From a virus, in the IMG/VR virus record IMGVR_UViG_3300005526_000006, positions 1-42,521 of that record: 42,521 nucleotides of DNA; one strand, given 5' to 3'. A program made the position numbers and the translations under genes. Shown here piece by piece: positions 6,507 to 38,515 of this stretch (position 1 is its first letter; each line of letters begins with the position of its first letter). The notes under the pieces were generated by a model. It saw only the letters and a program-made list of their open reading frames with translations. It searched no databases and was not told where the DNA came from.

Positions 6507-7300
6507 TGGCAGGTCGCAAAATCATCATCAACGGCTCACTTGGACCAGTCGGCAGGCCCGCAAGCGTCGATTCCGATCCGGTGCGCGGGCTTGTCGTTAA
6601 TGAATCATTTCATGGGGCGGGGTTGCAAAGCCTTGCGGGTAAAGCTGCGGCTTATATGGCGCACGGGGTTGCATTCAGTTGGCACCTAAGCCCAGTCGTC
6701 TCAACAATTCAAGCAACGTATTCAGGAGGACAACTGGGTATGCCGGATGACGCGGCAATTAATTGGCAACTGCTCGGCAACGATGTCCAGGAGTCGATTT
6801 TCAAGAATCCTTTCGTGCTGCAAAACTGCAACGACTTTCCGACGCTATCGGATGATGTCAGGCAATGGCGTTCGCTATGGGACCAGGGCGATACAGATGG
6901 GGCTAACGCTTTTATAAATACTGCGATTGCGGCTGTCCCGGGAGAAGAAGGCGCGCTCCGTGCAATAATCCAGATGATTAAAAACGGCGAGACGCACTTC
7001 GGCGTGGCCGGTTACGTCCTTAAGCGCACGCATTCAATCTCAAATTTCTTCAGCGGAACAATCCCCGGCGATGCAGCCGCGGAAAAGTTGCTGACCACTG
7101 CGACTATACTTGGATTCGGATTGCCGGGGCCGCTGATTGCCAAGATTGGCAGCATCGCCGCACCGCCGTTCAGCGCGCCATACGATTGGACCTGGAGGCA
7201 ATTACCATCGCAACTTGTCACGAGCGCCAGAAATCGCGTTGAAGTCTCAACCGAATGGCAGCTCGGACTCTGGAACACGAACCTTTACGCCTACGCCTAA
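6506..7300 (+). CDS. Tail-tip protein (putative distal tail component)
   Basis: The 264-residue product starts at ATG 6506, overlapping the tape measure TGA by one base (TGATG); the longer open frame upstream lies inside the tape measure gene. It contains no recognisable enzymatic motif. It has GIN/GSLGPVG turns at the N-terminus, a helical centre and a C-terminus rich in Trp/Tyr (YDWTWRQLPSQ, EWQLGLWNTNLYAYA). Genes directly after the tape measure usually encode distal tail or hub proteins, which is the basis for the call. Confidence 0.5.
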   Translation: MAGRKIIINGSLGPVGRPASVDSDPVRGLVVNESFHGAGLQSLAGKAAAYMAHGVAFSWHLSPVVSTIQATYSGGQLGMPDDAAINWQLLGNDVQESIFKNPFVLQNCNDFPTLSDDVRQWRSLWDQGDTDGANAFINTAIAAVPGEEGALRAIIQMIKNGETHFGVAGYVLKRTHSISNFFSGTIPGDAAAEKLLTTATILGFGLPGPLIAKIGSIAAPPFSAPYDWTWRQLPSQLVTSARNRVEVSTEWQLGLWNTNLYAYA

Positions 7301-7897
7301 ATGTCCATACAAGCACCCAAGCGTCCCGACGGTTCTAACCCTGAGGCGCTTTACGCACAGTTCTCGCATGAGTCCATTTCGCACGTTCTGAGATTGCAAA
7401 GGGTGGCGGGGACTGGGATGCGGAACACCACGCAAGGGCTTGCGGTCATCCCCGACCAAACTTCGATGGCATCTGGCGCAGTCGTTAAAATGTATCTGCT
7501 GCGCGATGTCAAAGGCGATTACCTGGTTGCGCATTCATGGGACGGAGATACCGAGGGAACGCAGGATATTTACATCGCAAAGGAACCCGAACACCGCGAA
7601 AGCGTCACCGATGAAACAATCCTTGGGGTTGACCATACCTTCACATACTCCGATGGGCCAAGTGAGGACTGGGACGTTGAAACCGCGGCGCGATTCAATC
7701 GTGTGCGCCACGATAACGACGGAAGCACGACCGAGGACCAGCGCATCGTCCCGCCCTGGAAAGATGGCCTGGTTATTCATGCCATAACGGCGAGGACGGA
7801 CGCCACTCGGCCGACATCCGATGACGATGACACGCCTATAAAGATAGGGCTTCTGATTATCGGCCGTTCCTGCCAATGGGCTAAAAAGCGCGGATGA
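7301..7897 (+). CDS. Tail-tip/baseplate-type protein of unknown function
   Basis: The 198-residue product starts immediately after the previous stop and overlaps the next gene by ATGA. It looks largely beta, with VVKMYLLRDVKGDYLVAHSW around residues 61-80, a charged linker of DDD residues near position 177, and a hydrophobic C-terminus. Its place in a coupled run after the tape measure suggests a tail-tip subunit; no family is recognised. Confidence 0.6.
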   Translation: MSIQAPKRPDGSNPEALYAQFSHESISHVLRLQRVAGTGMRNTTQGLAVIPDQTSMASGAVVKMYLLRDVKGDYLVAHSWDGDTEGTQDIYIAKEPEHRESVTDETILGVDHTFTYSDGPSEDWDVETAARFNRVRHDNDGSTTEDQRIVPPWKDGLVIHAITARTDATRPTSDDDDTPIKIGLLIIGRSCQWAKKRG

Positions 7898-8625
7898 GCC
7901 ACGTCCTTTCATCGGAGAGTGCGCACCATTGCGGAACGGAAAGCACCCATCATGTTTTATCGGGTGCTGGCACAATCAATTTAAGCACGGACAAATCTTC
8001 AATTCTCGTTGGCGAAAAGTTCCAATTCATCGTCACCTCCACGGATTTAGAAACCCCAAGTGTCGCCATTGATGAAATATTCCCTGGCGTTAGGCTGAGC
8101 GTTGCGACCGTCTCACTCGATGGGGTGGGCGCTGGTTCGGTCGCGTACGTCTCTGGAATTTTGCCAGCAAACCCGGCCCTGATCTCTAGCTTGGACATCG
8201 GCCCAGACTTCCAATTCATTGGACATTCCCCAGGCGCCGACGATTCCAATGTGGTTCATATGGTCATCACAGACCCCGGGCTCTTTCATTGCGACGGGGG
8301 TTTTATTTCCTGGGTAAATGCAGCCGCTGGAATCTCTGCGACTGGGACATTGACCGGCTCCGCGGCATTTCTAAGCGGTGGGCTCGGGGTGACATCGGCG
8401 GGATACACCGACACCGGATCAAGCCTGCTGGTATGGCAAGTGCCAAGGGATTCATTCGGCGTTTGGCACGACACCTCGGGGGCCTGGCAGATGGATGGGC
8501 TTGGACTTCTTTACGTGAAGCACGACGACAGCTATGGCATCCACTGCCCGCGCGGGCTTTATGATAAGACCGGCGATCTCGGATTCTACCCGGGCGCGCC
8601 GGCCACGCTTACGCTTTTGCCATAA
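7894..8625 (+). CDS. Tail-tip protein with Ig-like features (putative)
   Basis: The 243-residue product is coupled to the previous gene by ATGA at 7894. The segment GAGTINLSTDKSSILVGEKF (residues 25-44) followed by alternating strands resembles an Ig-like fold. The C-terminal third has short Gly/Asp turns and aromatic residues (GVWHDTSGAWQMDGLG). The N-terminus has several His and Cys residues that could bind a metal. It is probably part of the tail tip or a fibre attachment protein. This is inferred from position. Confidence 0.55.
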   Translation: MSHVLSSESAHHCGTESTHHVLSGAGTINLSTDKSSILVGEKFQFIVTSTDLETPSVAIDEIFPGVRLSVATVSLDGVGAGSVAYVSGILPANPALISSLDIGPDFQFIGHSPGADDSNVVHMVITDPGLFHCDGGFISWVNAAAGISATGTLTGSAAFLSGGLGVTSAGYTDTGSSLLVWQVPRDSFGVWHDTSGAWQMDGLGLLYVKHDDSYGIHCPRGLYDKTGDLGFYPGAPATLTLLP

Positions 8626-11003: not shown

Positions 11004-12317
11004 ATGAGGCGACTACTCTCAATCCTGATTCTCTGTCTCGCCTGCCTTTCGGCGGGCGCATCGACATTCATCACGGCAACGGTTGCTCTGACTAACACGA
11101 TTTGGGGAACGTCCAATTACAACACCCTTACGGTGAACGGCAATACGCGCCACTTCACAAACCAAGTTGCGGACGCATCGACTCAGATTCTCACCAACAC
11201 AACGCAATCTGGAAGCGCGGCGAATCTCCTAAACCAGATTGCCACGTTTCCATTCTCCGGTGTCGGCCTGGGTCAAACCGCGGCAACGAATGTCGTTTTG
11301 AAATCGGCGGCGGATACCGCCCTAACGGTTTCCGTGTCCTCCGGGTGGGCCACCGTGGCCTACGTCACGAATAGCTTTGGGACAAATATCTCAGTCGTTG
11401 TTCCGGACGTTTATACGCCACAGCAAAAAACTAACGTCTATAGCGGTTTGATGGCCGACATCAACTCCGACGCTGACACAAATAGGCTCGCGGTTAGCAA
11501 GCTGCCGGCAAATATCGGCAGCACCAACCCGGTTTTCCACGGATCGGCGACTGTGACCAACGACGGCTCCGGGAGCGCGGTGGTAATCACCGGCAGCAAT
11601 GTGACGGCGCAGTCATTCACCGCGACCGGCACCGGAACAAATCTCATCGGCCTCTCGCGCATTACCAACGTTGCCGGGGGCCATTTCCTTTTCCAGCCGA
11701 CGGGTGGGCCTATTACCAACAATGACGACGCCTCGGTCTTTACCAATCTTCCTCTGGTCACGAGCTTCGATGTTCCAGCCTCTGAGTTGTTCTCAAACAA
11801 TATCGGGGACGGCGCGACTCTTAGTTTCGGCGCTTTCGGGTGTATTACCAACGTCGGCCAAGGCGCGATCTTGTGGCACACGAACGGGACATCGGCGGTG
11901 ACCAATACCGTCAGGTTTAGGAAGTCGTTGCCATGGGATTGGGACGGCGGAACCGTGAAGGTCGGCATCGTCTCTGTGTGCTCCGGGACCAACTCAGTCT
12001 TGGCGACCAATCTGGTTTACGCTGCGAGGGCCGCGGCGATACCGTTTGGAACAGGGCTAACAACCCCGACATTCGGAAGCCTTGCCAGAGTCACCAACAA
12101 CGTCGCCATAGGTGCCTGGACAAACGGCGTTGAGGGAATTACGGCCGCCTTGACCGTCGGCGGTTCACCGTCAGCAACAAATGGAATCCTTTGGGAAATC
12201 CAACGGCATGGTGGCGACGGTGGGGATACAGAGACGAATTACGACGCCTTCATTTTGCGGCTGCGGGTTTACTACAAGTCCAACACTCGAACCAATTTCC
12301 CCGCGTCCAGCCCATGA
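11004..12317 (+). CDS. Secreted fibre-like protein, Asn/Thr-rich
   Basis: The 437-residue product begins with MRRLLSILILCLACLSAGA, cut probably at AGA/S. The mature chain is rich in Thr, Asn, Gly and Val with TNG/TNN turns, as in beta-helical or trimeric fibres; residues 170-220 include the fibre-like GTGTNLIGLS motif. It directly follows the previous stop and is coupled to the LamG gene by ATGA at 12314. Likely role: host-surface binding, either on the virion or displayed on lysogens. Confidence 0.7.
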   Translation: MRRLLSILILCLACLSAGASTFITATVALTNTIWGTSNYNTLTVNGNTRHFTNQVADASTQILTNTTQSGSAANLLNQIATFPFSGVGLGQTAATNVVLKSAADTALTVSVSSGWATVAYVTNSFGTNISVVVPDVYTPQQKTNVYSGLMADINSDADTNRLAVSKLPANIGSTNPVFHGSATVTNDGSGSAVVITGSNVTAQSFTATGTGTNLIGLSRITNVAGGHFLFQPTGGPITNNDDASVFTNLPLVTSFDVPASELFSNNIGDGATLSFGAFGCITNVGQGAILWHTNGTSAVTNTVRFRKSLPWDWDGGTVKVGIVSVCSGTNSVLATNLVYAARAAAIPFGTGLTTPTFGSLARVTNNVAIGAWTNGVEGITAALTVGGSPSATNGILWEIQRHGGDGGDTETNYDAFILRLRVYYKSNTRTNFPASSP

Positions 12318-13114: not shown

Positions 13115-13368
13115 AAACCGCCGCACTCCTCATCTTATCCGGCATCGTGATGGACCTTGGCGCATCCAATCCGATAACCGTTACGCTTGACCAGCCGCCC
13201 GACGGCAGCGTTATTTCAAACACCGTCACTCTGTCAGCAACTCCGTTTAGCAGCGCGGCTCCGATTGTGCGCGTCGAATACTACTTGGACGGGACGAACT
13301 TAATCGCCACGGCTACCAATCCGATTCCACCGCCTCAAAGTTTGAATCTAACCGTAATATCACAATGA
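13111..13368 (+). CDS. Small secreted Ig-like domain protein
   Basis: The 85-residue product has a short signal peptide (MKTAALLILSGIVMDLGA/S) and a single bacterial Ig-like domain: ITVTLDQPPDGSVISNTVTL followed by VRVEYYLDGTNLIATATNP. Such domains usually occur in large secreted Verrucomicrobiota proteins; here one stands alone. It is joined by ATGA overlaps at both ends (13111 and 13365). It could be a separable module of a surface assembly with its neighbours. Confidence 0.7.
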   Translation: MKTAALLILSGIVMDLGASNPITVTLDQPPDGSVISNTVTLSATPFSSAAPIVRVEYYLDGTNLIATATNPIPPPQSLNLTVISQ

Positions 13369-13877
13369 AAACAAAACTGACCCTCCTATCCCTTATCTGC
13401 TTCGCACTCAATCTGGCCGGCGCACAGCAATTCCTTTTCCCTAGCAATTCCCCACCCGTTATTCAACTCGCGTGGAATCCAAGCCCGTCGCCAAACATCA
13501 CGAATTATTCGATTTACACCGGAGTCGGCCCGCGGCAATACACGAACCGTCTGGCCTTTGGAACATCAACCGGCGCCACAATAACACTACCGGCCCGCGG
13601 GGTGACTTTCTACTTCACCGTTACGGCGTGGGCCAGTGGACAGGAAAGCGATTTCTCGAACGAGGTTTCATTCACGCCCGCCAGTGTTCCAAGCGCGCCG
13701 ACGATGAAGCCGCTTGTCGTCCTAACGGTTCAGAAATCAGTATCCGGCCAAGGCACATTTGCTGATACCCAGATGACCTACAGCGATGACCCGGGCGGGC
13801 CTGAAGCATTTTACCGGCTGAAGGTGGACCGTGGGTTTGCGCTGACACTTACTCCGCCACCGATGCCGCACAAATAA
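13365..13877 (+). CDS. Secreted fibronectin type III domain protein
   Basis: The 170-residue product has a signal peptide (MKTKLTLLSLICFALNLAGA/Q) and one FN3 domain from about residue 30: IQLAWNPSPSPNITNYSIY, then VTFYFTVTAWASGQESDFSN, which strongly resembles FN3 domains of secreted Verrucomicrobiota proteins. The C-terminal 50 residues are unassigned. It is the last of six consecutive genes with signal peptides and overlaps the Ig-like gene by ATGA. Confidence 0.75.
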   Translation: MKTKLTLLSLICFALNLAGAQQFLFPSNSPPVIQLAWNPSPSPNITNYSIYTGVGPRQYTNRLAFGTSTGATITLPARGVTFYFTVTAWASGQESDFSNEVSFTPASVPSAPTMKPLVVLTVQKSVSGQGTFADTQMTYSDDPGGPEAFYRLKVDRGFALTLTPPPMPHK

Positions 13878-13890
13878 TGTTCATTCTCTT

Positions 13891-13953
13891 ATGCTCATAG
13901 TGGCGCTGATATTGGTTGATAATCTGTTCGCCATCTTCATCGAGGGAAAATGA
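13891..13953 (+). CDS. Possible 20-residue hydrophobic peptide
   Basis: ATG at 13891 opens a 20-codon frame encoding MLIVALILVDNLFAIFIEGK. It is strongly hydrophobic and ends with an ATGA overlap on the next gene, the same arrangement used throughout this operon. It may be a small membrane peptide or only a translational coupling leader. Size and lack of a Shine-Dalgarno keep confidence low. Confidence 0.35.
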   Translation: MLIVALILVDNLFAIFIEGK

Positions 13954-14243
13954 AGCCTGCGACAAAAGTTGCGTCCCGCTGCCCTTTTTGCGACGGAGCG
14001 AAACACCCCTGGCACATGAAGTGCCGCAAGTGTTACTCTCGGATTCGCAAGCGCATTCAAAGCAACCTTCAGAGCGCCTGCCTCATGTATTGGGCAATGG
14101 GCTTCACTGCGCGGGAAATAGCCCCGCGGTTAAAACTTTCCCCGAAAAGAATCCAGCAGGGGATCACCGAAGGTCAAGCCCGCCTAAGAATCTGGGGCCA
14201 AGCCAACATCACGCGCTGGGCGCTGAAAACCGGATTGATTTAA
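13950..14243 (+). CDS. Zinc-ribbon/LuxR-type HTH DNA-binding protein
   Basis: The 97-residue product has a small zinc ribbon at the N-terminus (CPFCDG at residues 11-16, CRKC near 25-28) and then a GerE/LuxR-type helix-turn-helix. The segment MGFTAREIAPRLKLSPKRIQ matches the recognition region, and the end (ITRWALKTGLI) matches the usual A-x-x-x-GLI terminus of NarL/LuxR regulators. It lies three bases before a stand-alone receiver domain, so the two may form a split response regulator. Likely role: transcription control of late or lysis genes. Confidence 0.7.
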   Translation: MKPATKVASRCPFCDGAKHPWHMKCRKCYSRIRKRIQSNLQSACLMYWAMGFTAREIAPRLKLSPKRIQQGITEGQARLRIWGQANITRWALKTGLI

Positions 14244-14246
14244 GCA

Positions 14247-14675
14247 ATGGCCGACACTGAATATTTCGATTACCGGAAAGCGGTGGAGAACATCGAGGGC
14301 ACCATTCGTGCGCTCCAACCGCCAAAGACGCTCCTCCTGGTGGACGATGACTCGGCTGACATTTTACTCACCTTGAAAATCCTCAACCTTTTCAACGTGA
14401 AAGTAACCGTCGCCCATAGTGGCGAAGAGGCAAGGGATACGATTCAGAACAAGAATTTTGATTTGGTTTTATTCGACCTGGTTATGCCGGGATTGGATGG
14501 GCTTGAATTTGCGTTAGGGGCGGCGGGCCTTATGCCCGGTGCAAGATTCATTTTAGTCACTGGCTATCCGTTGAGTCCCAAAGTGGAAGCGGTCCTGAGA
14601 CTGGGGGCGGTGATGTTGGCCAAACCTTTGACTCGTCAAAGTCTCGAACTGATCCTTCCACTTAAACCGCGATGA
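14247..14675 (+). CDS. CheY-like response regulator receiver domain
   Basis: The 142-residue protein is a single receiver domain with all key residues: the acidic cluster D33-D35, phosphoacceptor D77 (LFDLVMPGLDG), T105 in ILVTGYP and K126 in LAKPL. It has a roughly 25-residue N-terminal extension and no output domain. Receivers are phosphorylated by histidine kinases; none is encoded here, so a host kinase would be the donor. Neighbours are the LuxR-type HTH gene (3 bp upstream) and a membrane coiled-coil gene coupled by ATGA. This is unusual in a phage late region. Confidence 0.9.
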   Translation: MADTEYFDYRKAVENIEGTIRALQPPKTLLLVDDDSADILLTLKILNLFNVKVTVAHSGEEARDTIQNKNFDLVLFDLVMPGLDGLEFALGAAGLMPGARFILVTGYPLSPKVEAVLRLGAVMLAKPLTRQSLELILPLKPR

Positions 14676-15005: not shown

Positions 15006-15347
15006 ATGACAAATCGCACCCGCAAATGGATTCGCGCCGGCACGGAGGTTCTTATCCACGGCGGGACATCGGCCCTGATTTCATCAATCACCGCATCGCT
15101 GGTGGATTCGGATCACTTCCCGCTGTTCTCCATGCCGTTTCTGAAAATGTTCGGCGCGGGATTCATCGGCAACGGAGGAATCCGCTTTCTCCAATGGTGG
15201 CAGGCCAATCCGTTACCCCCTGACGGTGACACGGGGCAGATACTAGCCGATGGCGGGTCGCTCGTTCCGCAACAAGTAATTTCCCTCAATCCTCTAGCTA
15301 AAGTTCAAACCATGTCCGTGCCAATCGAGGCAAACAAACCGCAGTAA
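15006..15347 (+). CDS. Small membrane protein, holin candidate
   Basis: The 113-residue product starts at ATG 15006 (a longer frame from 14952 overlaps the previous gene). Two weakly hydrophobic helices are visible, TSALISSITASLV near residue 20 and FLKMFGAGFIGNGGIRFLQWW near residue 46, followed by a hydrophilic tail with Pro and Gln. Its place between a coiled-coil/TM protein and another small membrane protein suggests a holin or membrane lysis factor. No family is recognised. Confidence 0.5.
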   Translation: MTNRTRKWIRAGTEVLIHGGTSALISSITASLVDSDHFPLFSMPFLKMFGAGFIGNGGIRFLQWWQANPLPPDGDTGQILADGGSLVPQQVISLNPLAKVQTMSVPIEANKPQ

Positions 15348-15365: not shown

Positions 15366-15530
15366 ATGTCAATCGGACTTTTGTTTTGGGTGATAATGAT
15401 TATCGGACTCCTGTTCGGCATCTATACCAATCGGGCCAATCCAATGCAATGGGCTGGCAATAACCTCGTGCTCTGGATTCTCCTAGCACTTTTAGGCTGG
15501 GCTGTTTTCGGTCCAGCGATCCACCGTTAA
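15366..15530 (+). CDS. 54-residue double-spanning membrane protein
   Basis: ATG at 15366, preceded by AAAGGA about 10 bases upstream, opens a 54-codon frame. The product has two hydrophobic helices, SIGLLFWVIMIIGLLFG (residues 2-18) and LVLWILLALLGWAVFG (residues 34-49), separated by a short polar loop with ANPMQW. It lies within the lysis-type cassette and may be a holin or antiholin. Confidence 0.65.
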   Translation: MSIGLLFWVIMIIGLLFGIYTNRANPMQWAGNNLVLWILLALLGWAVFGPAIHR

Positions 15531-23077: not shown

Positions 23078-23962
23078 ATGAGCCAACCGTCACAACCTGG
23101 ATTCTATTACGGCGTGGCATTCGACGATTACCGTTCATGGCCCGCCGTCAATTTCTCCCTGCTGAAGGAAATGGACAAGACGCCGATGCACTGCGCTTAC
23201 CGTCGCAGCCATCCATCCGAAGCAACCGAGGAAATGGAAGTCGGAGGAGCCGCGCATTGTCGCATCCTGGAGCCAGATAAATGGGATTCGCGCTTTTACG
23301 TGTGCCCGCCATGCAAACTAAACAGCAAAGAGGGCAAAGCGATAATGGCCGATGCCATCCTTGCCGCCAAGGGCCGAACCATCGTCAGGATGGAACACGA
23401 CACTGAAGCCAGCGCAGCCGAAGCAATGGCGGAATCCTTATCCGGTAATTCAGTTGCGGAATCGCTCATAAACGACATCGGGCGGACTGAGGTATCCGCG
23501 CTTTGGTTTGATGAAATGGGGCAGCAATGGTGCAAGGGTCGATTTGACAAGCTCAACGTCGGTGTCACCCCGTCGGTTGGTGACCCGATACAGCCGACGA
23601 TTGTCGAAATCAAAACCTCATCGCGGTTAGATGATTTCGCATTCAGCCGCACCGCTCGCAATCTGCACTATGACGCACAGGCTGCTTGGTATTGCTGGGG
23701 ACACGTTTGCATCACAGGCGAAACCGCAGCGCACCGAATCATTGTTATTGAGAGTCACCCGCCGCATACGGTTCGCGTGATGGAACTGGACGAACCTTCA
23801 ATGCAAGGTGGCGCGACAAAATATTCCCGGTGGTATGGCGAGTATTGCAAATGCACCAAGCGCGGACAGTGGCCGGGATGGCCGGAGAAGGTGCAAAAGT
23901 TGAGCGTGCCGCAGTTTGGGGAACTCGATCTAGTTGTAGGCGGGAAGGAGTACGCGTTATGA
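23078..23962 (+). CDS. RecE/exonuclease VIII-like PD-(D/E)xK nuclease
   Basis: The 294-residue protein is a 5'-3' exonuclease-type enzyme for phage recombination. Motifs: GGAAHCRILEP with H60 (near residues 56-66), GRFDKL with D157, IVEIKT with E177 and K179, and Y198/Q201 in the following helix. It opens a DNA-processing run with methyltransferases and HNH genes. No RecT partner is recognised nearby. It overlaps the methyltransferase by ATGA. Confidence 0.8.
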   Translation: MSQPSQPGFYYGVAFDDYRSWPAVNFSLLKEMDKTPMHCAYRRSHPSEATEEMEVGGAAHCRILEPDKWDSRFYVCPPCKLNSKEGKAIMADAILAAKGRTIVRMEHDTEASAAEAMAESLSGNSVAESLINDIGRTEVSALWFDEMGQQWCKGRFDKLNVGVTPSVGDPIQPTIVEIKTSSRLDDFAFSRTARNLHYDAQAAWYCWGHVCITGETAAHRIIVIESHPPHTVRVMELDEPSMQGGATKYSRWYGEYCKCTKRGQWPGWPEKVQKLSVPQFGELDLVVGGKEYAL

Positions 23963-24606
23963 ATCCCTATTACGACGATGGCAAAGGCATCGTGATTTAT
24001 CACGGCGATTGCCGGGAGATTTTGCCTACATTGCCGAAGGTTGATTTGGTGCTGACTGACCCGCCGTATGGGATTAACGAAAACTATGCCAGTTATATTG
24101 ACCGGCTTGGAGAATTAAGGGTAACGATTGCACAATCCATGCCATTGATTATCAAAAATTCGGTTGTAGCTATTTTGACGGTTGGGGTTGGTAATATATT
24201 CGAGTATCCGAAACCGACATGGACCCTCGCGTGGGTTACGCCGGCGGGTTGCGGGAGCGGTCCTTGGGGATTTTGTTGCTGGCAACCTGTTCTTGCTTAT
24301 GGAAAAGACCCTTACTTAGTGAACGGATTAGGCAGGAGACCAGACTGCATTCTACACACTGAATCAGCAGAGGAAAACGGCCATCCATGCCCTAAACCTA
24401 TAGGATTTTGGAGTAAGCTGCTTCTTAGGGGTTCACCTAAAGACTCAGACTATATTTTAGACCCCTTCATGGGCAGCGGCACCACCCTCCGTGCAGCCAA
24501 AGACTTAGGCCGACGCGCTATCGGTATCGAAATCGAAGAGCGCTACTGCGAAATTGCGGCGCGTCGCTTGCAACAGGAGGTTTTACAACTATGCACTACC
24601 GCCTGA
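23959..24606 (+). CDS. DNA methyltransferase, N4/N6 type (DPPY)
   Basis: The 215-residue protein methylates DNA, probably to block host restriction. The catalytic DPPY (residues 34-37) precedes the AdoMet-binding FMGSG (170-174), the order of beta-class enzymes. It is small, with a short central part as target-recognition region. It is coupled to the RecE-like gene by ATGA and overlaps the next gene by 16 bp. Confidence 0.85.
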   Translation: MNPYYDDGKGIVIYHGDCREILPTLPKVDLVLTDPPYGINENYASYIDRLGELRVTIAQSMPLIIKNSVVAILTVGVGNIFEYPKPTWTLAWVTPAGCGSGPWGFCCWQPVLAYGKDPYLVNGLGRRPDCILHTESAEENGHPCPKPIGFWSKLLLRGSPKDSDYILDPFMGSGTTLRAAKDLGRRAIGIEIEERYCEIAARRLQQEVLQLCTTA

Positions 24607-25554: not shown

Positions 25555-25718
25555 TTTGGCCCATAACATTCTCCTGCGCGTGCGGCGATAGCTGGCGATT
25601 AACAGTGCCCATGAAGTTTCGAACGCGAGATTTTTACGAGTATGCCATGACCGAATGGCTAAAGGCGCACGATGGGCATTTAATTGCGTCCAGGCGGGCG
25701 AAGAAGGATAGGAAATGA
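25551..25718 (+). CDS. 55-residue Cys-containing protein
   Basis: ATG 25551 (ATGA overlap with the HNH gene) opens a 55-codon frame with CACG near residues 9-12 and a helix of EYAMTEWLKAHDG, ending with a basic tail. It ends with ATGA at the Dam gene start (25715). The CxC may form half of a zinc site, but no partner pair is seen. No function assigned. Confidence 0.55.
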   Translation: MIWPITFSCACGDSWRLTVPMKFRTRDFYEYAMTEWLKAHDGHLIASRRAKKDRK

Positions 25719-26734
25719 CGGCGGAAACTCTCACAGCTCCTTTTCCTTGGTTCGGCGGAAAATCCCGCGTGGCTGATGTCGTTTGGGAACGCTTCGGCAA
25801 CGTCCAAAACTACGTTGAACCATTCGCCGGGAGTCTTGCCGTCCTTTTAGCCCGTCCGCACGATGCCAATACCGAGACTGTAAACGACAAAGACGCCTAT
25901 CTATCAAACTTCTGGCGTGCAATCCAATGCGACCCTACAGAGACAGCCAAATGGGCGGATTGGCCCGTCAGTGAAGCCGATTTGCTTGCGCGGCACCGTT
26001 GGCTTGTTTCCACCGGAAAAGACCGCCTGAAGTCATTACGGAGCGATCCTGAGTTCTTTGACGCGAAGGTGGCGGGATGGTGGGTTTGGGGGCTTTGTTC
26101 GTGGATTGGGGCTGGTTGGTGTGTGGAACGCGGGAATGGGCATCAACCGGAACAAGTTCCCCACCTTGGGAACGCGGGAATGGGCATCAACCGGAAACTG
26201 CCGCACCTTGGGGACGCGGGGATGGGATTAAACGCGGAGCGTTCTGCGAATTGGAAACAGCGCCCGCATTTGGGAACGAATGGTTTCGGAATCAACGCGG
26301 CCCGCGCTAATGGGATTTACGGTTATTTCGAAGCTCTTTCAAACCGCTTGCGCAAAGCTCGCGTGTGCTGCGGCGAATGGGATCGCGTCCTAGGCGAGTC
26401 CGTCACGATTAAGCACGGATTAACCGGCGTTTTCCTTGACCCGCCCTACTCTACCGACCGCGCTGATTGTTATTCCGTCGAGTCGGATTGTTCTGCAGTC
26501 GTCCGCGATTGGGCAATCGCCAATGGCGACAATCCCGACCTGAGAATCGCGCTTTGCGGTTACGAAGGCGAACACGCGATGCCTGAAACCTGGGAGTGCG
26601 TACCATGGAAAGCTCGCGGTGGATACGGCTCGCAAGGCGACGGCTCAGGCCGAGAGAATAGCGCGAAGGAACGAATCTGGTTTTCGCCCGCATGTTTGAA
26701 AATGGAGCTATTCAACCGATGCAACCAAGCCTAG
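25715..26734 (+). CDS. DNA adenine methylase, D12 class
   Basis: The 339-residue protein methylates adenine in DNA. Motifs are PWFGGKSR (residues 10-17), VEPFAGSLAV (34-43), NDKDAYLSNFWRAI (57-70) and the catalytic LDPPYS (241-246). Between residues 140 and 195 lies an insertion of repeated PHLGxAGMGIN units (149-159, 163-173, 184-194). The DNA below shows a 28-bp repeat read in two frames, so the insertion is evolving by slippage. It overlaps the next gene. Confidence 0.85.
   Translation: MTAETLTAPFPWFGGKSRVADVVWERFGNVQNYVEPFAGSLAVLLARPHDANTETVNDKDAYLSNFWRAIQCDPTETAKWADWPVSEADLLARHRWLVSTGKDRLKSLRSDPEFFDAKVAGWWVWGLCSWIGAGWCVERGNGHQPEQVPHLGNAGMGINRKLPHLGDAGMGLNAERSANWKQRPHLGTNGFGINAARANGIYGYFEALSNRLRKARVCCGEWDRVLGESVTIKHGLTGVFLDPPYSTDRADCYSVESDCSAVVRDWAIANGDNPDLRIALCGYEGEHAMPETWECVPWKARGGYGSQGDGSGRENSAKERIWFSPACLKMELFNRCNQA
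26125..26196 (+). repeat. 28-bp direct repeat inside the adenine methylase
   Basis: The same 28 bases occur at 26125-26152 and 26169-26196, 44 bp apart. Since 44 is not a multiple of three, the copies are read in different frames: ERGNGHQPE versus NAGMGINR. A third, diverged copy follows near 26213-26240. This marks a minisatellite within a coding region. Confidence 0.85.
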
Positions 26735-38062: not shown

Positions 38063-38515
38063 ATGTCAGTAATCACAACCGAGGCAGGCGCAGCCCTGCT
38101 AAACCACGTCCTCAACAACCTAGCCTGGGCCAATATCGGCGACGCCTCCGGTCTGCCAGCGGGCACAGCCGGATCGCTCTACGCGAGTCTCCACACCGCC
38201 GATCCAGGCGTGGGCGGCAGCCAGTTAACCAGCGAAGCAGCGTACACGGGCTACGCACGGGTTGCGATGGCGCGTGATAATACCTGGTGGACCGTGAGCG
38301 GGCTTTCGGCGACCAACGCCAAAGCAATCGCTTTTCCTCAGAGCAGCACCGGCCCGGAGACTGAGACTTACCTGGGAATAGGAACCGCCACAACGGGCAA
38401 TGCGGGCCATTTGCTTTTCCGCTGCCTCATCAGCTCGCCGGCCGCGGGACTGGTAGTCAATCCAAATATCACACCCTCGATTGCGATAGGGGCGGGAACT
38501 CTGAGCGTGTCATAA
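38063..38515 (+). CDS. Conserved phage structural protein (tail-fibre type)
   Basis: The 150-residue product has SLYASLHTADPGVGGSQLTS (about 38-57), EAAYTGYARVAMARDNTWWT (58-77) and a closing NITPSIAIGAGTLSV. This pattern is a well-known phage structural protein that usually sits near fibre genes. It probably decorates the virion. Its place between portal and protease is unusual in a lambda-type head cluster. Confidence 0.7.
   Translation: MSVITTEAGAALLNHVLNNLAWANIGDASGLPAGTAGSLYASLHTADPGVGGSQLTSEAAYTGYARVAMARDNTWWTVSGLSATNAKAIAFPQSSTGPETETYLGIGTATTGNAGHLLFRCLISSPAAGLVVNPNITPSIAIGAGTLSVS

Follow-up and report, generated by a model that had tools for sequence, protein, structure and literature searches.

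A phage-encoded single-domain receiver whose gene overlaps that of an XhlA-like membrane protein in otherwise unrelated uncultured phages

Results

The locus and the virus record

The window analysed here is an entire virus record of 42,521 bases (IMGVR_UViG_3300005526_000006). At the late and lysis end of the genome, the location given in the original prediction, we find the following genes.

13365 to 13877, plus strand: secreted protein of 170 residues, the positional counterpart of the secreted protein gene upstream of the receivers of relatives
13950 to 14243, plus strand: protein of 97 residues with a zinc-type motif and a probable LuxR/NarL-like helix-turn-helix (HTH), from motif reading, an HMM and the predicted fold
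14247 to 14675, plus strand: single-domain CheY-like receiver of 142 residues, from the Pfam profile and the active-site residues
14672 to 14998, plus strand: XhlA-like tail-anchored membrane protein of 108 residues, from the ATGA overlap with the receiver stop and from hydropathy
15006 to 15347, plus strand: protein of 113 residues downstream of the receiver/XhlA-like pair
15366 to 15530, plus strand: two-TM-like protein of 54 residues (MSIGLLFWVIMIIG...), related to proteins encoded behind the module in L012, L002 and L016

The record is that of a temperate-type tailed phage, because these genes are recognisable elsewhere in it:

316: head protein
5175: tape measure
18174: integrase
32513: terminase
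36200: portal
41032: prohead protease
41974: scaffold-like protein

Judging from the gene order, the record is probably near complete and opened between the scaffold and head protein genes. The prohead protease has distant matches to many proteobacterial phages. No tRNA genes were found in the record, and a scan of it for promoters and terminators gave matches that were rarer than in shuffled sequences.

The receiver

The 142-residue protein is beyond doubt a receiver. It scores 55.3 bits (E = 8.5e-15) against the Pfam profile Response_reg (PF00072), over the cut-off of 30.2, and the nearest solved sequences are CheY-like receivers, for example 3crn. It was predicted to be complete and to be encoded three bases behind the 97-residue frame, and both hold: D33, D34, D35, D77, T105 and K126 are present and, in the alignment, invariant across five lineages. 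By homology to CheY we take D33/D34 to be the acid pair and D77 the phospho-accepting aspartate, with T105 and K126 in their usual roles. Judged by these residues, the receiver should be competent for phosphorylation. The histidine kinase that belongs to a classical two-component system is missing, as predicted, since HATPase_c, HisKA and Hpt domains were found nowhere in the record.

Thus, the protein shares with the CheY-like single-domain response regulators the profile, the acid pair, the phospho-aspartate, the threonine and the lysine. Unlike these it is phage-encoded, has no kinase in the record, and its gene is always coupled to a membrane-protein gene. It further differs by a conserved N-terminal extension of 28 residues before the first strand, in which M1, D3, T4, D8, A12, I16, E17, T19, I20, L23 and Q24 are invariant, and by the residue three positions before the lysine. 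At this switch position receivers usually carry tyrosine, phenylalanine or histidine, which is common within PF00072 and not universal. Here the residue is methionine (Met123) in all five lineages, and therefore the output switch of the receiver may be unusual.

Searching GenBank phages with the receiver returned only receivers below about 40% identity. The GTDB genomes were searched via narrow peptide patterns and gave generic receivers only; this search therefore argues just weakly for an absence of the receiver from bacterial chromosomes.

The HTH protein

The 97-residue protein contains the zinc-type motif C11-x2-C14-x10-C25-x2-C28 (CxxC-x10-CxxC), read from the sequence, and ANITRWALKTGLI can be read directly at its C-terminus. 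The signature A-x3-R-x-A-x3-GL near this end is common to the HTH proteins of the record and its relatives and is shared with NarL/LuxR regulators (GerE, PF00196). Against GerE the protein itself reaches 17.5 bits (E = 0.003), below the cut-off of 23.5, whereas its counterparts in L002 and L004 pass with 29-30 bits. An HMM built solely from the HTH proteins of other phages ranks the 97-residue protein first among the 222 open reading frames of the record (E = 0.0009, next best 2.4), and the alignment reaches the GLI end. The predicted fold is a helical helix-turn-helix (pLDDT 73). With Foldseek, the LuxR/NarL domains of LiaR, VraR, DosR and TraR come out high, but with E of about 0.3-1, and in VIA-align sigma region 4 is equally close (Z 6-7), LuxR-type and other folds being tied. 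The original prediction named a NarL/LuxR domain with a zinc motif; the motif and the HMM match bear this out, whereas the GerE score and the tied folds leave the family assignment at probable. In contrast to NarL/LuxR regulators the chain has no receiver or ligand domain, and the record's copy carries the zinc-type motif. A PhyR-like reading, that is, a sigma-like domain combined with a receiver, was rejected: PhyR is found at Z 6.8-6.9, yet many HTH folds tie. A search of IMG/VR with the 97-residue protein returned no relative.

The receiver gene continues the reading frame of the HTH gene after a gap of three bases (GCA). Only TAA and GCA separate the two frames, and read-through would yield an HTH-receiver fusion. 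Such a fusion (TAA GCA ATG) was set aside because no relative has the two genes side by side.

The membrane protein

The 108-residue protein has a conserved central motif, GKPGVLQNQVRMINALFDEKEG..PRLTAMERRELERM, and by hydropathy a single C-terminal TM segment at about residues 84-102. It is predicted to be helical with an N-terminal helix, in a model of low confidence (pLDDT 52). The positive-inside rule places the basic flank of a TM segment in the cytoplasm. As the lone C-terminal TM segment follows a basic stretch, the rest of the protein would be cytoplasmic, as is the receiver. In size, N-terminal helix, single C-terminal TM segment and holin-like neighbours the protein resembles XhlA (PF10779), the lysis proteins of PBSX-like prophages. 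It differs in its distinctive central motif and in the profile match, which at 12.7 bits is far under the cut-off of 34.7, the E-values obtained being 0.14 and 0.3. We therefore use the name XhlA-like for position and architecture only. No such protein was found in a search of phages and plasmids.

Relatives and gene order

The scans of IMG/VR used as query the receiver sequence, alignments of receivers or of the membrane protein, or a degenerate pattern for the ERRELERM motif of the latter. Scans with the receiver or the XhlA-like protein converge on the same eight further records in four lineages, some scans giving subsets of these. The scans detect only members holding exact seed peptides and could therefore have overlooked more distant phages in which the pair is disrupted. 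Every relative is a metagenomic contig, and some probably come from one sample series. Receiver identity to the record's copy is 68% for L010, L011 and L012, 61% for L004, 60% for L002, L003 and L005, and 54% for L016. As the receivers of L004 and L002 are 97% identical to each other, the independent lineages may be four. The gene orders are as follows.

This record: secreted (13365), HTH, receiver, XhlA-like, 15006 gene, two-TM-like of 54 residues (15366)
L012: zinc-motif HTH of 159 residues, FN3-like, receiver, XhlA-like, small protein, two-TM of 53 residues
L004 and L002: GerE HTH of 86 residues, secreted, receiver, XhlA-like, two-TM of 109-110 residues
L016: secreted, receiver, XhlA-like, holin, two-TM of 53 residues

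In all eight junctions read, covering five lineages, the receiver stop and the start of the XhlA-like gene share ATGA. This coupled membrane protein had gone unmentioned in the original prediction. If the receiver were a decoy or a phosphate sink that disturbs a host two-component pathway (envelope stress or the cell cycle, for instance) late in infection, this invariant coupling and the co-conservation with the membrane protein would be left unexplained. We thus consider such a role very improbable, although a receiver with a full active site and no kinase, encoded on the late strand, is what it would lead one to expect.

The HTH gene is close to the receiver gene in four of the five lineages and directly adjacent only in this record. 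One secreted protein gene (FN3-like in L012) parts the two in L012, L004 and L002, and near the receiver of L016 we looked for an HTH gene and found none. Since the HTH gene is the less constant neighbour, the proposal of one response regulator split into two genes is overstated; what survives of it is the proximity in most lineages. Conservation as neighbours, the check attached to that proposal, has a mixed outcome.

Conservation against the genome background

We compared all open reading frames of the record by blastp with those of three phages, namely G003 (54.8 kb, holding L004), G007 (41.5 kb, holding L012) and G008 (21.9 kb, holding L016). The receiver and the XhlA-like protein are the only proteins common to the record and all three, and they are 54-68% identical to their counterparts there. 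The head and packaging genes of the record have no detectable relationship to those of the three phages. Apart from a tail/adhesin protein in G007 and an HNH-like match in G008 almost nothing else is matched. As the pair is shared while the rest of the genomes is not, it has either been exchanged as a module or been preserved by an unusually strong constraint.

Between L004 and L002 dN/dS (Nei-Gojobori; rough values, as there are few differences) is about 0.037 for the receiver gene and 0.028 for the XhlA-like gene; the HTH and secreted-protein genes reach about 0.10. The receiver and XhlA-like genes are thus under strong purifying selection between these two. Across the phages the HTH proteins are only 20-35% identical, far more divergent than the receivers. 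Because the ATGA overlap is found everywhere, whereas the HTH gene relocates, is once absent and is poorly conserved, it is the membrane protein, and not the HTH protein, that constantly accompanies the receiver.

These observations also bear on a two-part response regulator in which the phosphorylated receiver would bind the HTH protein and direct it to phage or host promoters. The LuxR-like gene lies at most one gene from the receiver in four of five lineages, the HTH proteins share their C-terminal signature, and in this record the two genes are adjacent and in frame. Against this, L016 manages without the HTH gene, adjacency is lost outside this record, and the HTH sequences diverge much more than the receivers. 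Moreover, the neighbourhood could be due to chance, as G007 carries another small LuxR-like HTH gene far from its receiver. We therefore regard a two-part regulator as unlikely to be the main function, and as possible in the form of a secondary layer. The additional HTH gene of G007 encodes a stand-alone NarL/LuxR-type protein of 86 residues scoring 48.9 bits (L030 1489-1749; G007 38351-38512), in the same phage as L012.

The lysis neighbourhood

In L016 the gene following the XhlA-like gene encodes a holin (Phage_holin_5_2 at E = 3e-5, under the Pfam cut-off; PHROG holin at E = 1e-6). A holin is recognisable in this one lineage only; in the others small two-TM proteins are found near the module. 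The 54-residue protein of the record is a candidate holin or accessory protein; the L012 copy has no PHROG match. Members of this family also occur in the L004 phage, away from the cassette. The 113-residue protein between has no family match and no TM segment over the hydropathy threshold and is not conserved in the other lineages. An endolysin was not identified in the record by the searches made.

The receiver and the membrane protein might also cooperate outside lysis, for example in superinfection exclusion or in control of the host surface. The genes upstream encode secreted or lectin-like proteins, a tail/adhesin protein is common to the record and G007, and the XhlA match is not significant. 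However, the holin adjoining the pair in L016 and the small two-TM proteins near it in the others speak for lysis, and we hold a non-lysis role to be distinctly improbable.

The scan that yielded the relatives also reached a further receiver in L029 (IMGVR_UViG_3300032373_000846, 6572-8606), a candidate phage record. Its 201-residue protein has an N-terminal receiver that is distant from that of our record, and a search for relatives of this receiver returned only L029 itself. The gene has an M23/PG-binding endolysin gene a short distance upstream and small membrane proteins encoded beside it, an independent hint that receivers accompany lysis genes.

Discussion

We suggest that the receiver and the XhlA-like protein form a module of two genes, whose receiver, once phosphorylated by the host, would tune a tail-anchored membrane component of lysis. 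In our view this is a serious possibility that stops somewhat short of being probable. The coupled membrane partner, the lysis-like neighbours and the hint from L029 lead us to infer a post-translational control of lysis. The original prediction had the receiver time late or lysis genes; the location is indeed lysis-like, whereas a role in timing late transcription fits less well, since the pair is found at the distal end of the late region.

The control of lysis could proceed in these steps. With no kinase of the phage at hand, the receiver would draw phosphate from the host, where a histidine kinase, a phosphotransfer protein or acetyl phosphate could be the source. The XhlA-like protein would be made from the message of the receiver by translational coupling. 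In one of its two states the receiver would then bind the XhlA-like protein at its cytoplasmic part and in this way hold back or release the holin or lysis function. The host signal would thereby set the lysis time. The nearby HTH protein might provide an optional second output or be an independent regulator.

To our knowledge, the timing of lysis is for the most part poorly understood in phages that have neither quorum nor peptide sensors. Otherwise unrelated uncultured phages may let a host signal time their lysis via a receiver. More tentatively, we propose a phosphorylation-controlled lysis clock, in which the receiver acts post-translationally on a membrane lysis protein and which is exchanged as a module between unrelated phages, possibly with more than one origin, as L029 might indicate. 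If true, host two-component signalling would act on lysis directly and at the post-translational level, unlike the known transcriptional inputs.

Bacteria offer a precedent for direct action of a single-domain receiver on a membrane protein: a stand-alone receiver is reported to activate a membrane phosphoglycosyl transferase by binding to it (PMC12802240), as is here proposed for the XhlA-like protein. That receiver is cellular and not from a phage, and its target differs from the XhlA-like protein. Phage VP882 likewise controls lysis in response to a host signal, which it senses with VqmA, a regulator borrowed from the host (PMC10426928); VqmA is, however, a ligand-binding transcription factor which has no receiver and acts on transcription. 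In a limited literature search we found no mention of a phage-encoded response regulator, receiver or two-component system.

Two further observations concern the record itself. The tail/adhesin-like protein encoded at 11004-12317 shares 52% identity over its C-terminal 200 residues with a protein of G007, a phage that is otherwise unrelated. Two genes are DNA methyltransferase-like, at 23830-24606 (phrog_67) and at 25715-26734 (phrog_56), the match of the latter being confined to the first 80 residues.
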